DNA of 33,246 nucleotides. Source: Halobellus captivus (GTDB lineage: Archaea; Halobacteriota; Halobacteria; Halobacteriales; Haloferacaceae). This document shows positions 16,539 to 26,362 of the stretch, piece by piece. The notes beneath the pieces were generated by a model. It was not told where the DNA came from. It was given only the letters and a program-made list of their open reading frames with translations, and ran no database searches. The stretch's first letter is position 1. The number at the start of each line of letters is the position of its first letter. A program made the position numbers and the translations under genes. Location: assembly GCF_007655485.1 (NCBI RefSeq), contig NZ_VJXQ01000002.1, positions 715,962-749,207 on the forward strand, written 5' to 3'.

Positions 16539-17372
16539 TCACTCCGTGAGTGTCAGGGTCGCGAGGGAGGCGAACATCGCTTCCTCGGTTCGCACTACCT
16601 TGCTGCCCTGTCGCGGAATCGTATTCAGCCAGAGATCGAACCCCGGACCGTCTGCGGGTTCGACCGCATCCTCGACGTCGATGCCGAAGATGGCCGGAAG
16701 CCCACGACCGGGCGACCCGAACGCGACTGTCGCGCCCTCGCGTTCGACACGCGAGGCGAGCTGCGGCAGCCGAGTCGTGGTCAGCGCCTCGCCGAATCGG
16801 GACGTCGCGATTGCGACGCCCGCGTCGGCGCGGCCGAGTGCTTCCTCGAGGTCCATACGGGACACGTCGAAGCCCGGAACGGGCTCGTCGACGATCCGCG
16901 CACGGACCGGTTCTCGCGAAGAGATCCTGATGGCGACGCGCGCTCCCTGCTCGACCTCCATCGACGGAGGGGTGAGCAGAGAGACCGGGTGTTGCAGTCC
17001 GCAATTGACCCGAACGCGGCCGTCAGGTCCGACCTCGGTCACGATTCCCTGTGTTAACGACCCCGAACCGTCTGATTCGGAGCCGGTCATAGACGGGACG
17101 CGGAGGGGCGGTAAGACCCCGACGAACTCGAGTTCGTCGCGTTTGCCCCACACCTCTTTTCGGAGGTGCGGCGGCGTGGCGGCGTATCGCAGCACCGTTT
17201 CGACGAACTCGCCCCCCCAGCGTCGCTCGCCTTCCCGATCGGGGAAGACGGCGAGCCGATCCGCCCGAAACACCGTCGCCGCGCGGGCGACGTAGCCGAG
17301 TTTGCGAGTTGCCTCGCGTTTGTCTTCGGCCTCTCGGACGAGAGAGGACGGCACGAGTACGGTCAGCGTCAT
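16539..17372 (-). CDS. SPOUT-class RNA methyltransferase (putative RNA uridine N3-methyltransferase family)
   Basis: I recognise the family once called DUF171, now described as putative RNA uridine N3-methyltransferases related to human SPOUT1. It would use S-adenosylmethionine through a trefoil knot. The SPOUT domain is split: residues 1-90 (MTLTVLVPSSLVREAEDKRE), an OB-like insertion (about 105-165, GIVTEVGPDGRVRVNCGLQH), and the knot part (about 170-277, VAIATSRFGEAL, GATVAFGSPGRGLPAIFG, WLNTIPRQGSKVVRTEEAMF). The glycine-rich and P-x-Q-G-S-x-x-V-R segments fit cofactor binding. It is the promoter-proximal gene of the ribosomal operon, 4 nt ahead of L3. That suggests rRNA or ribosome assembly, but the target base is not known from sequence. 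Confidence 0.9.
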   Translation of the reverse strand: MTLTVLVPSSLVREAEDKREATRKLGYVARAATVFRADRLAVFPDREGERRWGGEFVETVLRYAATPPHLRKEVWGKRDELEFVGVLPPLRVPSMTGSESDGSGSLTQGIVTEVGPDGRVRVNCGLQHPVSLLTPPSMEVEQGARVAIRISSREPVRARIVDEPVPGFDVSRMDLEEALGRADAGVAIATSRFGEALTTTRLPQLASRVEREGATVAFGSPGRGLPAIFGIDVEDAVEPADGPGFDLWLNTIPRQGSKVVRTEEAMFASLATLTLTE

Positions 17373-21862: not shown

Positions 21863-24800
21863 TCACTCCCGTCGAAGCGCGAGCAGTGCCGCACCGGCGA
21901 GCGCGACGAGCGCCGCCAGCACGCCGAATCCGGGCGTCGTCGTCGGCGTCTGGACCGTCGGAATATCGGTCGTGGTGGTGGCGGCGGTCGTCCCCGTCGC
22001 CGTCGTGGTCGTCGGCTGCGCAGTCGACGTGGTGGTCGTCTCCGTCGGCGTGTCCGTCGTCGGGGTCGCGATCACGGGCTGGACGGTTCCCTCGACGACC
22101 AGTTCGGACGCCGGACCGATGTCGTCGACCGTGATCGAGTAGCTATCGCCCGGACTCGTGTCGTTGAACGACAGCGTCACGAGGAACTGCCCGTCGGCGT
22201 CCACGGTCGTCGTCTCGCTCTTCAGGAACGCCGGTCGGACGCCGTCGGCGCTCCGCACGCGGACGCGGACTTCCGTCCCCGGCGCGACCGTCGCCTCGCC
22301 GAAGATCTCCTGACCGCTCACCTCGGTGACGTTGAACGGCTCGGTCATCTCGAACTCGGGATCGGTCAGCGAGTGCGTCGTCTCGACGGTCTCGTCCTCG
22401 CCGCCGGTCGTCAGATCGAGGTCGTTCTCGTCGTCGCCGAACACGGTGAACGACGCCCGCAGGCTGTCGTCGGCGTCGACCGATCCGGTCTCATCCTCGC
22501 CGGGATCGATCACGCCGTCGCCGTCCTCGTCGCGGACGCCTTCGAGGTCGTCCTCGCCGGTCTGTGCGACCACGTAGTAGGTGTCGTTGGCCGAATCCGC
22601 CACGACGCGGGCGTTAGAGCTACCAAAGTCGAGCAGGAGCGGGTCCTGATTCGGCCCGGGATCCTGCTGTTCGACGGTGAACTGGGTCCTGTTTCCGTCG
22701 GCGAAATCGAAGAACTCCGTGGTGACGGTGTCCTGGTCGTGGGCATCGAGCGCGCCTTCGAGACCCGAGGCCTCGATCTCGTAGACGACGGTGTCGCCGA
22801 CGGCGATGTCCGAATCGCGGGTCAGCCACTCGTCGTCCGTCCCCTCGCGAACGTCCGCGGCGGCGTCGAGGTCACCGTAGCGGTTTCGCGGCGCGGTCCA
22901 CGTCCGGATCGCGGTCGTCTCCCGCTCCTGCAACGAGAGCAGTTGGATATCGGTCTCTCGACCCTCAGTCTCGACTGACAGCGGATAAGCCTCCGCGTCG
23001 AGGAGGTCCGAGACGCCAATAGTCACCTCGCCGTCGACGACTTCGTCGCCGTCACTGACGCTGAAGAGATCGTTTTCGCCATCGAACGATCCGGTTCCAA
23101 CGTTCGGTGCCTCGTAGCTGTTGAAGTAGACCGTCACTTCGCCGTCGCGGTCGTCGCCGTCGTCGTCACGAACGGTCACCGACGCCTGATAGCCCGCCTC
23201 GTCGTCGCCGACTGTCAGAGTCGCCTCGCGAGTGTTCCGCAACTCGATCGGGATCGCGACGACGTCACCGCGGTGTTCCTCGACGACGTCGTTCGGAAGC
23301 AGCGCTTCCGTATCGCCCGCCTCTCGGATCGTTATCGTCTCGGATTCGGCCGAGACGCCGGAGGCGGTGTCAGTGGCGCGAACGGTGTACTCGCCTGTTT
23401 CGAGTTGGAGCGATTCGACGTCGTAGCTGAAGTCGCGGTCGCCCTGCCCGGAGAGATCGACAAGCCGTTCGTCGACGACTTCGTCGTTGTCATCGAGGAG
23501 TTCCAGTTGGATCTCTCTCCCACCGACTTGTCCGGAGACGGTCCCGTCGATCGTCTGTAGGGTCGTCACGTTTCGGTCCTCGATATCGAGTGTGAGATCG
23601 AGGTCACGGACCGTGATCGAGGCCGTCCCTTCGCTTCCAATGTCTGCCTCGTAGTCACCGATCTCCTCGCCGTCCGTATCGAAGAGGAAAATTCGGCTGT
23701 TGGTGCCGGTGGATCCCTCGAAGAAGTAACCGTCCGTGTCGTCTTCAGTTCCCTGCAGGGTGATGTCCGTGTTCGAGGAGTCGGCAACGATCGAAACGAC
23801 CGATCCGCTGTAGACGTTGGCGGACTCCCCCGCCCCCACAGTCGTCGGCGCGAAGGTGATCGGCTTGTACTCGGGGCTGTCGGGATTCGCGAGCGCATTT
23901 CCGTCAGTGTCCTCGATCCCGCCTTCGAGTCGGAGCGTCAGGTCTCGGCTGTCGGTGTCGTCGAGTTCGATGATGACGCGACCTTGCGCCTCGTTAACGG
24001 TGGGATTGAGCTCGCCCGTCACTTCCTCTTCGTCGACGTAAATCCCGTAATTCGACGCGAAGTTCTGGATATCTTCGGAGAACGCGACCTCGATGTACGC
24101 TGTGCCGCCCTGTTCGTACTGCGTCGCGCTCAGGAACTCGGGATCGCCGGGCTGGCCGCCCTCGTACTCGACAGTGAGCTCTTCATCCGTCGATTGCGAT
24201 CGTGCAGGGTCGCTGACCTCCACTGTGAGGTTATAGGTTACCTCCTCCTCGCCCTCGGGGACGGTGGGGCTGGTCAGATTGACGCTGCCCGCGAGATAGG
24301 CAGACTCCGTCGAGACGGTGTCGGAATACGAGAGCGTGTTGCCGCTCTCAGTCAGGGAACCGAGCTCAGCCCCGGAGGCATTCTTCACGACGACGTCGGA
24401 CGATTCGATCGAGAGCTCGCTGGGGACGTTGATCTCGAAGGTCGTTTCTTCGCTCGTGTCGATGCCCCTGATCGAGTAGTTGAACGTGTGCTGATTCTCG
24501 GTATCTTGCTCGACTGTGCTCGGATCGAACGGTTCTTCGCTGCCGATCGCGAACGCCCCCGGAACGTTCTCGACGGTGAGCGTTTCGTCGACCGAAGCGG
24601 AGTCGCCGTCGTCGTCGGTACCGTTGAATTTGAGGATATAGTCCTCGTCGGTCTCCACCGACGGATTCTCCAGCGTGACGCTGCCATCGAAGTAGACCGT
24701 CTCAGTCGTGGAGTTGACGTCGAAAGAGAGCGTTCGGGGATCATCGGTGACCGTCGCATCCAGTTCGGCCCCGGTGCCGTTCTTTACGACAATAATGTGA

Positions 24801-25060
24801 TCGACGATCTCCGGATATTCACCGGGAACAGAGAACGTCAGCGTGGTGTTTCCGCTCGTATTGATACCCGAGAACGAGTAGTTGAACGTGTGTTCGGTCT
24901 CGGTTCCTTCGTCGACGGTGAGCGGATCAATTTGCGATACAGCGGTCGCGTTACCGACGGCGGCGACAGAGCCAGCGAACGTGATACTGCCGACGACGAC
25001 CGACAGTACCATGAGCGTCGCGAGCGAAACCGCGCCGATTTGGGAGGGTAAGCGTGTCAT
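21863..25060 (-). CDS. Exported S-layer-type glycoprotein with PGF-CTERM-like C-terminus (BGTF-type surface protein)
   Basis: A 1065-residue cell-surface protein. A signal peptide covers about 1-35 (LATLMVLSVVVGSITFAGSV). Two tandem related domains follow (about 42-165 and 170-300), each with TFNYS, VVKN.(T/S)GAEL and a closing LTVE strand. A central part with SANVYSGSVVSIVADSSNTD resembles the haloarchaeal S-layer glycoprotein. A region with TAIRTWTAPRNRYGDLDAAA and FNVTEVSGQEIFGEATVAPG is typical of BGTF surface proteins. DEDGDGVIDPGED looks like a calcium loop. Many N-glycosylation sequons and a Thr-rich stalk precede the end PGFGVLAALVALAGAALLAL plus RRE, the motif cut and lipid-anchored by archaeosortase A. 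It may be the main S-layer protein or a second one; it is divergent from pilin genes. Confidence 0.93.
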   Translation of the reverse strand: MTRLPSQIGAVSLATLMVLSVVVGSITFAGSVAAVGNATAVSQIDPLTVDEGTETEHTFNYSFSGINTSGNTTLTFSVPGEYPEIVDHIIVVKNGTGAELDATVTDDPRTLSFDVNSTTETVYFDGSVTLENPSVETDEDYILKFNGTDDDGDSASVDETLTVENVPGAFAIGSEEPFDPSTVEQDTENQHTFNYSIRGIDTSEETTFEINVPSELSIESSDVVVKNASGAELGSLTESGNTLSYSDTVSTESAYLAGSVNLTSPTVPEGEEEVTYNLTVEVSDPARSQSTDEELTVEYEGGQPGDPEFLSATQYEQGGTAYIEVAFSEDIQNFASNYGIYVDEEEVTGELNPTVNEAQGRVIIELDDTDSRDLTLRLEGGIEDTDGNALANPDSPEYKPITFAPTTVGAGESANVYSGSVVSIVADSSNTDITLQGTEDDTDGYFFEGSTGTNSRIFLFDTDGEEIGDYEADIGSEGTASITVRDLDLTLDIEDRNVTTLQTIDGTVSGQVGGREIQLELLDDNDEVVDERLVDLSGQGDRDFSYDVESLQLETGEYTVRATDTASGVSAESETITIREAGDTEALLPNDVVEEHRGDVVAIPIELRNTREATLTVGDDEAGYQASVTVRDDDGDDRDGEVTVYFNSYEAPNVGTGSFDGENDLFSVSDGDEVVDGEVTIGVSDLLDAEAYPLSVETEGRETDIQLLSLQERETTAIRTWTAPRNRYGDLDAAADVREGTDDEWLTRDSDIAVGDTVVYEIEASGLEGALDAHDQDTVTTEFFDFADGNRTQFTVEQQDPGPNQDPLLLDFGSSNARVVADSANDTYYVVAQTGEDDLEGVRDEDGDGVIDPGEDETGSVDADDSLRASFTVFGDDENDLDLTTGGEDETVETTHSLTDPEFEMTEPFNVTEVSGQEIFGEATVAPGTEVRVRVRSADGVRPAFLKSETTTVDADGQFLVTLSFNDTSPGDSYSITVDDIGPASELVVEGTVQPVIATPTTDTPTETTTTSTAQPTTTTATGTTAATTTTDIPTVQTPTTTPGFGVLAALVALAGAALLALRRE

Positions 25061-25477: not shown

Positions 25478-25903
25478 ATGAACTTCAAAGAACTCTTCAC
25501 AGACGATTCGGCCGTCTCGCCGGTCATCGGGGTCATCCTGATGGTCGCGATAACCGTCATCCTTGCCGCCGTCATCGGCGCGTTCGTGCTGAACCTCGGC
25601 CAGGGGATTCAGCAGACGTCCCCGCAGGCGAGTTTTGGATTCGATTACGAGGGGAATAACGTTACAATCACTCACGAGACAGGGGATTCAATCGAAGGTG
25701 AGCGACTGAACACGACCGGAGTTGAGTGGAATGACGGCCCATCAGAAAACTGGTCTACGCATCCAACTGTAAACGCTGGGACATCAATTACGAAAAACGC
25801 GACCAACCCATTCAGTGGTGAGACAATCCGCGTCGTCTGGGAATCCCAGAACGGCGAGAACTCCGCGACGCTGAGCGAATCCACCGCACCCGACAACTCA
25901 TAA
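25478..25903 (+). CDS. Archaeal type IV pilin, copy 1
   Basis: A 141-residue PilA-like pilin. The N-terminus has a short prepilin leader [12 protein letters not shown] and the archaeal pilin H-domain [20 protein letters not shown], which both targets the protein and builds the filament core after PibD cleavage. The rest is a small extracellular domain with N-glycosylation sequons (NVT, NTT, NWS, NAT) and the C-terminal block [17 protein letters not shown]. The position expected to be Lys/Arg before the cleavage site is Ser. The start is ATG 25478; an upstream TTG would add six residues with no family support. Copy 2 follows after 4 nt. Confidence 0.93.
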
Positions 25904-25907
25904 GACA

Positions 25908-26333
25908 ATGAACTTCAAAGAACTCTTCACCGACGATTCGGCGGTTTCACCGGTTATTGGAGTCATCCTAATGGTCGCGATTACTGTCATCCTCGCCGCT
26001 GTCATCGGCGCGTTCGTGCTGAATCTCGGTCAGGGAATCGATCAGAGCGCACCTCAGGCAAGTTTCGACTTTGACTACAACGAGACGTCAAACAATGTCA
26101 CCATTACCCATCAAACGGGTGATTCGATTGATGCTGAACGACTATCCACAACGGGGCTTGCTGGAGGATCTGCAAACTGGACAGATCATATGGCTGGAAC
26201 CGTTTCAGCTGGAACGAGTGTTGAATTCAACAACACTGCGGACTGGAGCGGCGAAACCATCCGCGTCGTCTGGGAATCCCAGAACGGCGAGAACTCTGCG
26301 ACGCTGAGTCAGTCTACCGCGCCCACCGAATAG
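25908..26333 (+). CDS. Archaeal type IV pilin, copy 2
   Basis: A 141-residue paralogue of the preceding pilin. Residues 1-44 are identical to copy 1 (through LNLGQGI), and the C-terminal [17 protein letters not shown] is identical. The middle (about 50-115) differs in sequence and sequon positions (NETS, NVT, NWT, NNT). DNA in the shared N-terminus has many silent differences, whereas 38 nt near the 3' end are identical. G+C is low for this chromosome (29 of 60 in 26041-26100). It lies 4 nt after copy 1, so the two are co-transcribed and could form mixed pili. Confidence 0.93.
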
Positions 26334-26362
26334 TCGGTTCGACCGCGTTTTCTCCGGCGCGC

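Follow-up and report, generated by a model that had tools for sequence, protein, structure and literature searches.

A tandem pair of PilA-type pilin genes

The window, that is, the whole stretch of 33,246 nucleotides of Halobellus captivus DNA that was analysed, contains two pilin genes arranged head to tail, both intact and complete. Copy 1 runs from an ATG at 25478 to a TAA at 25903 and copy 2 from an ATG at 25908 to a TAG at 26333, each encoding 141 amino acids. The list of open reading frames puts the start of copy 1 at a TTG 18 nt upstream; its homologues begin at the ATG. The features of the pair are as follows.

25478..25903, + strand: PilA-type archaeal type IV pilin, copy 1, middle type B (Pfam PF07790, E 3e-23; TIGR02537)
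25478..25609, + strand: constant N-end of copy 1, residues 1-44 (class III signal peptide and assembly helix)
25643..25813, + strand: variable middle of copy 1, with four N-X-S/T sequons (residues 61, 78, 91, 107)
25814..25891, + strand: constant 3' block of copy 1, corresponding to the last two beta strands and containing the identity at 25826-25863
25904..25907, + strand: 4-nt intergenic gap between copy 1 and copy 2 (read from the sequence)
25908..26333, + strand: PilA-type archaeal type IV pilin, copy 2, middle type A (Pfam PF07790, E 3.1e-25; TIGR02537)
25908..26039, + strand: constant N-end of copy 2, residues 1-44 (codon comparison with copy 1)
26073..26246, + strand: variable middle of copy 2, with four N-X-S/T sequons (residues 58, 63, 90, 108)
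26247..26324, + strand: constant 3' block of copy 2, containing the identity at 26259-26296 (direct repeat D2)

The 4-nt gap is consistent with the transcription of both pilins on a single message. The pair lies between an S-layer glycoprotein-like gene on the opposite strand and a gene without an NCBIfam match, which we take to be CinA-like.

Both proteins scored far above the curated cut-off of the Pilin_N family (82.9 and 89.3 bits versus 25.2), and TIGR02537, the archaellin/type IV pilin N-terminal model, matched at 46 bits against a cut-off of 20. Copy 1 resembles in sequence the subunit of the solved Haloferax volcanii pilus, 8fj5 (phmmer E 7.8e-36). An AlphaFold model of copy 1 (pLDDT 84) has an N-terminal helix at residues 15-43 followed by six strands, the last two at 116-122 and 129-136. 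The best structural match of this model was again 8fj5 (Foldseek E 2.8e-11, about 50% identity; VIA Z 14.7, rmsd 2.9 over 125 residues), so that the two share a matching fold; this evidence for a helix with a beta-sandwich head comes from copy 1 only. The predicted PibD cleavage site, DSAVSPV, resembles those tabulated for PilA1-6 in PMC4371748. By sequence, both genes encode PilA-type adhesion pilins. The constant ends of copy 1 correspond in the model to the assembly helix and the final beta-hairpin of the fold, and conserved ends in the pair need not be recent because they form these structural elements.

The pilins resemble PilA1-PilA6 of H. volcanii in belonging to the Pilin_N family and in having a near-identical H-domain among the paralogues of one genome. 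In contrast to H. volcanii, the window species combines a tight tandem with two unlinked copies: its four such pilins are the tandem pair, one gene on contig C1 (the x locus) and one on contig C16 (z). A fifth, weaker Pilin_N match is found elsewhere in the genome.

Constant ends, a variable middle and the 38-nt identity

The initial annotation had described tandem pilins with constant ends and diverged middles, and our comparison agrees with this description. Residues 1-44 are identical in the two copies (44/44), as is the C-terminal block of 17 residues (17/17), while 32 of the 55 aligned residues are identical across residues 56-113. The many silent changes noted in the shared N-terminus are also real, affecting 16 of 42 degenerate codons and 12 of 26 fourfold sites. 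In the middle, 16 of 18 fourfold sites differ; in the C-terminal block, only 2 of 16 degenerate codons carry a silent change. The exact identity of 38 nt between 25826-25863 and 26259-26296 was confirmed, and it lies within direct repeat D2, which joins the two 3' blocks at 87% identity over 78 nt.

The same annotation had taken this identity as a sign that the 3' ends of copy 1 and copy 2 had recently undergone gene conversion, a reading that fared less well. Among 431 between-genome pilin pairs, only 2 have a run that reaches 38 nt in the 3' part, and both of these link two sister species; among 34 within-genome pairs, only copy 1 and copy 2 have one. Given the amino-acid matches and the codon conservation of the genus, the run-length test gave P = 0.025. 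However, this test was post hoc, 17 of the 25 codons in the whole 3' end are identical where 15.1 would be expected (P = 0.26), and the nearest 3' ends at the DNA level are in other genomes. Judging conversion from the 38-nt run alone was considered and set aside, as it is weakened by column-wise codon conservation. The 3' identity of the pair is only nominally unusual; a short 3' conversion between the two copies is possible on these codon counts, and we hold a recent event to be somewhat doubtful. More generally, a DNA repeat between tandem pilins is no proof of recent conversion without a genus-wide baseline. At the N-ends, 31 of 49 codons are identical against 31.7 expected (P 0.67), which is the genus baseline, and the codon comparison argues against recent conversion there.

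Such a pair could in principle arise by constraint only, i.e., through an old tandem duplication whose ends stay under purifying selection while the middle drifts, with no recombination. The structural role of the ends in the copy 1 model fits this account, and so do the silent sites of the ends, which are at the genus baseline, and a codon bias that is weaker in the middle (third-position GC 0.69) than in the two ends (0.84 and 0.82). The comparison across the genus, given below, weighs on the other side.

The N-end of copy 2 (25908-26063) has a low third-position GC, 0.58 over residues 10-52 compared with 0.88 in copy 1. The silent changes in this part of copy 2 may reflect another origin, because this value is unusually low.

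Pilin loci in the genus

A pilin match is present in all 17 genomes of the genus set, which holds one genome per species. The synteny comparison covered 15 of them, G001 and G016 (68 and 72% complete) being left out. The tandem locus (s) is syntenic: one flank consists of thiamine-binding genes and, mostly, S-layer genes, and the opposite flank of genes for an M50-CBS protease and a DEAD helicase. Pilins are present there in 10 of the 15 genomes, in one to three copies: two in G000, G002, G003, G009, G011, G013, and G015, three in G007 and G014, and one in G005. No pilin was found beside the corresponding protease and helicase genes in the other five (G004, G006, G008, G010, and G012).

The second, unlinked locus (x) is syntenic in G000, G002, G004, G005, G007, G009, G013, G014, and G015, and also lines up with G010 and G012. 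It is syntenic in G003 as well, where it holds only an N-terminal pilin remnant. The remnant (L093:6062-6181) keeps about 40 N-terminal codons, and behind it comes an inverted repeat of some 70 nt with the ends CTGTCGGCTATA and TATAGCCGACAG; this repeat looks like a small insertion element.

Ends and middles have different histories

The alignment (A1) comprises 44 of the 45 pilin genes of the genus, G008_1 being left out, and the trees and codon tests were run on 31 of the 45, namely those at the s, x, and y places together with G004_1 (y denotes an additional G014 copy close to x). The assignment of middle types was visual, by inspection of the alignment. It left two genes without a type, and type A does not form one clade. 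In the tree of middle proteins, copy 1 falls in the type B clade with support of 99/98 and copy 2 lies with type A, while type C is supported at 89/92. The middles appear as a few old types common to several species and loci.

At the x locus, the parts of a gene conflict. Its middles are of type A in G000, G002, G005, G013, and G004 and of type C in G007, G009, G014, and G015, and the middle tree rejects the x-locus genes as one clade (log-likelihood 46.9 lower, AU p 0.0054). The tree of C-end DNA, on the contrary, groups eight of the nine x-locus genes at 99/96, whatever their middle. C-end DNA also rejects the groupings by middle types A (p 0.0014) and C (p 0.0020) but not that by type B (p 0.27), and N-end DNA rejects types A, B, and C alike (p 0.0013 or lower).

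Among eight x-locus genes, the middles split into two types at 100/100 and reject the species-like grouping {0,2,5,7,9} (p 9e-6), which the flanking genes do not reject (p 0.34). Conversely, the flanking genes reject the A-type genomes as one clade (p 2e-7 with G004, 0.039 without it). The ends of these eight genes alone carry too little signal against the split by middle type (p 0.27), and the DNA up- and downstream of the x-locus genes is too diverged to be read as a marker of breakpoints. At this one orthologous locus the middle type has been replaced; a single change suffices on the flank tree, and two changes are needed, by our reading, on the concatenated tree (2405 columns).

Because the trees of ends and middles conflict, the pilin genes of the genus are, on this phylogenetic evidence, true mosaics, and the different histories of their parts require recombination in the gene family. 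The mosaic nature proposed in the initial annotation is therefore upheld at the family level, both by these trees and by the homogenised N-tracts between tandem copies elsewhere in the genus that are described below. It had been opposed there to a picture of stable, orthologous copies with no sign of recombination, of which one half applies: the copies are mostly old orthologues, but recombination is present.

Homogenised ends

For the codon test, pairs from different genomes supplied the expected identity, against which 34 within-genome pairs were set. N-end codon identity was above expectation in G014 (copies 1 and 3, P 0/5000), G007 (copies 1 and 2, P 0.0002), G003 (P 0.0004), and G013 (P 0.0008). 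All four excesses survive correction for 34 pairs, and the pair in the window is not among them. Of the 31 N-ends, 10 have their nearest DNA neighbour in their own genome; the corresponding number is 1 for the middles and 1 for the C-ends, again of 31 each. The N-ends have thus, as far as codons and neighbours tell, undergone conversion at the DNA level in several species.

Long identical N-tracts, for example of 81, 62, 56, and 53 nt, join tandem copies with differing middle types. Such tracts speak against constraint as the only cause, as does the fact that the end and middle trees each reject the other's grouping, and we regard an origin of the pattern without any recombination as quite improbable.

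Protein ends are closer within than between genomes when tested by shuffling the s-locus genes of nine genomes, with the single-copy genome left out (N-end P 0.0003; C-end 0/3000 shuffles), while middles are not (P 0.87). Residue 35 agrees in 38 of 43 within-genome pairs, against a shuffled mean of 12.9 and a maximum of 26; for pairs that combine different loci of one genome, the count is 25 of 30. In G007, the three copies have homogeneous C-end proteins and fourfold differences of 10/15, 6/16, and 7/16, a pattern better explained by selection on the protein than by conversion. The likeness of C-ends is mostly at the protein level, and selection for co-assembly fits it at least as well. Paralogues are thus more alike than orthologues, as in concerted evolution, for protein ends and for the N-end codons of the four other species, and this is not the case for the middles or, at the codon level, for the pair in the window. 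A comparison of 12 genomes from other genera did not separate ends from middle, as all three segments exceeded the shuffles about equally; two pilin matches, one partial and one lacking the SPV motif, had been dropped from that set.

Possible sources of the middles

The initial annotation had likened the pair to systems that vary exposed pilin surfaces. In gonococci, a pilin with a constant N-end and a variable region (pilE) is altered by recombination between pilin sequences, drawing on silent partial cassettes (pilS). The genes described here share the constant N-end, the variable region, and recombination between pilin sequences, and constant ends around a variable middle are what silent-cassette variation would leave. 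The likeness does not extend further: no cassettes were found, both copies are complete, and the middles are old types, mostly with orthologues in relatives. A genome search for silent cassettes, as the annotation had suggested, returned with the middle of copy 1 just four places, all of them known and intact pilin genes. This was a protein search in an assembly of 21 contigs, in which absence is not absolute; a DNA search of the genome gave the known pilin genes and matches under 40 nt only. Active pilin variation from silent cassettes is accordingly extremely improbable in our view.

Alternatively, the middles may have been delivered by plasmids and viruses carrying PilA genes instead of being moved within the genome. 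A PilA-like match occurs in 39 of 72,556 plasmid records (21 at 80% or more query coverage), a Halobellus ramosii plasmid bears a tandem PilA-like pair, and the archaeal virus SNJ2 has two tandem pilins. The type A x-locus middle of G013 is as near to those of the more distant G002 and G005 (0.81) as these are to each other (also 0.81). However, we found no high-identity plasmid or virus copy of the middle types in the window, and identity between the H. ramosii middles and those of our set does not exceed 50%. Delivery of this kind, instead of movement within the genome, is rather unlikely. A search for pilins on viral contigs yielded one remote relative, which is no evidence for mosaics.

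The tandem pilins of SNJ2 (OP012469.1) lie at 1974-2438 and 2459-2956, one of them labelled gp10, "hypothetical protein", and the other unannotated. They are identical over their full length to the solved PilA1 (9myg) and PilA2 (8gi2) of Natrinema J7-2; therefore, these solved pilus subunits are also virus-encoded. This identity was not found in the literature searched and may be known to the depositors. The Natrinema pair is like ours in being a tandem of PilA genes with similar ends and dissimilar middles, and differs in being virus-borne, with 8gi2 only remotely similar to copy 1 (E 1.8e-11).

A proposed role for the pair

The explanation we favour, and consider fairly probable, is that copy 1 and copy 2 are two PilA-type major adhesion pilins of one pilus, the ends of which are homogenised and the middles exchanged by occasional recombination. 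Sequence and fold show a prepilin with an N-end that becomes the assembly helix, a beta-sandwich head closed by the conserved hairpin of the C-end, and a variable middle rich in sequons, which would be the exposed and probably glycosylated face; in the 31 pilins, 100 of 111 sequons are in the middle, 10 in the N segment, and 1 in the C segment. The co-assembly of both copies into one filament would hold the ends constant, and the ends could double as homology for recombination, which would occasionally even them out and exchange the middles. As a result, the cell might present different glycosylated surfaces, which could serve adhesion or the avoidance of pilus-binding viruses; change would accompany the divergence of species and would not amount to switching within a clone.

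This proposal leans on results from other archaea. The H-domains of H. volcanii PilA1-6 are almost fully conserved and each pilin forms pili, while adhesion differs among them; replacing the H-domain of PilA1 abolished pili (PMC4371748). By analogy with these H-domain results, a constant helix would admit both copies to one filament, and the two are likely to be co-assembling subunits, each with a glycosylated surface of its own to present. In Sulfolobus islandicus, loss of pilA1 and pilA2 by deletion leads to virus resistance (PMC7217056), which makes virus pressure a plausible driver. Gene conversion that equalises the genome copies of polyploid haloarchaea has been reported (PMC8223754, PMC11276520). 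Haloarchaea therefore possess a mechanism by which sequences can be homogenised, although those reports concern genome copies and not pilin paralogues.

PilA paralogues and haloarchaeal gene conversion are already known, as is the tandem duplication of pilins (PMC4858521). We did not find the modular history of PilA ends and middles in the open-access literature searched, nor, in the same literature, a genus-wide mosaic history for H. volcanii like the one seen here. The results bear on a puzzle posed by H. volcanii, namely why one genome maintains several pilins whose helix is the same and whose heads differ. Since ends and heads have separate histories, compatibility within the filament and the displayed surface can change independently. 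A broader view, which we put forward as unlikely, would see PilA as a system of slow modular surface variation: the ends would serve as assembly code for the filament of the species and as recombination handles, and the middles would pass among chromosomal loci, species, plasmids, and temperate viruses under selection by pilus-binding viruses.

Other features of the window

The S-layer glycoprotein-like gene that adjoins the pilins (21863-25060, - strand) encodes a protein with PGF-CTERM and a BGTF surface domain. An S-layer-like gene adjoins the pilins in several relatives, with no match at that place in G002, G007, and G011. A terminator-like site at 26344-26361 was discarded, as the scan finds 2 such sites versus 1.4 in shuffles, and promoter-like signals were discarded as well, as the scan uses bacterial-type promoters and is uninformative in an archaeon. 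At the left edge of the window, CRISPR-type direct repeats occupy 38-270, with Rfam RF01337 matches at 38-67, 103-132, and 169-198 and one more copy, slightly degenerate, that ends near 262. An L4 ribosomal protein leader (Rfam RF03135) lies at 16927-17026 (- strand), upstream of a ribosomal protein operon.
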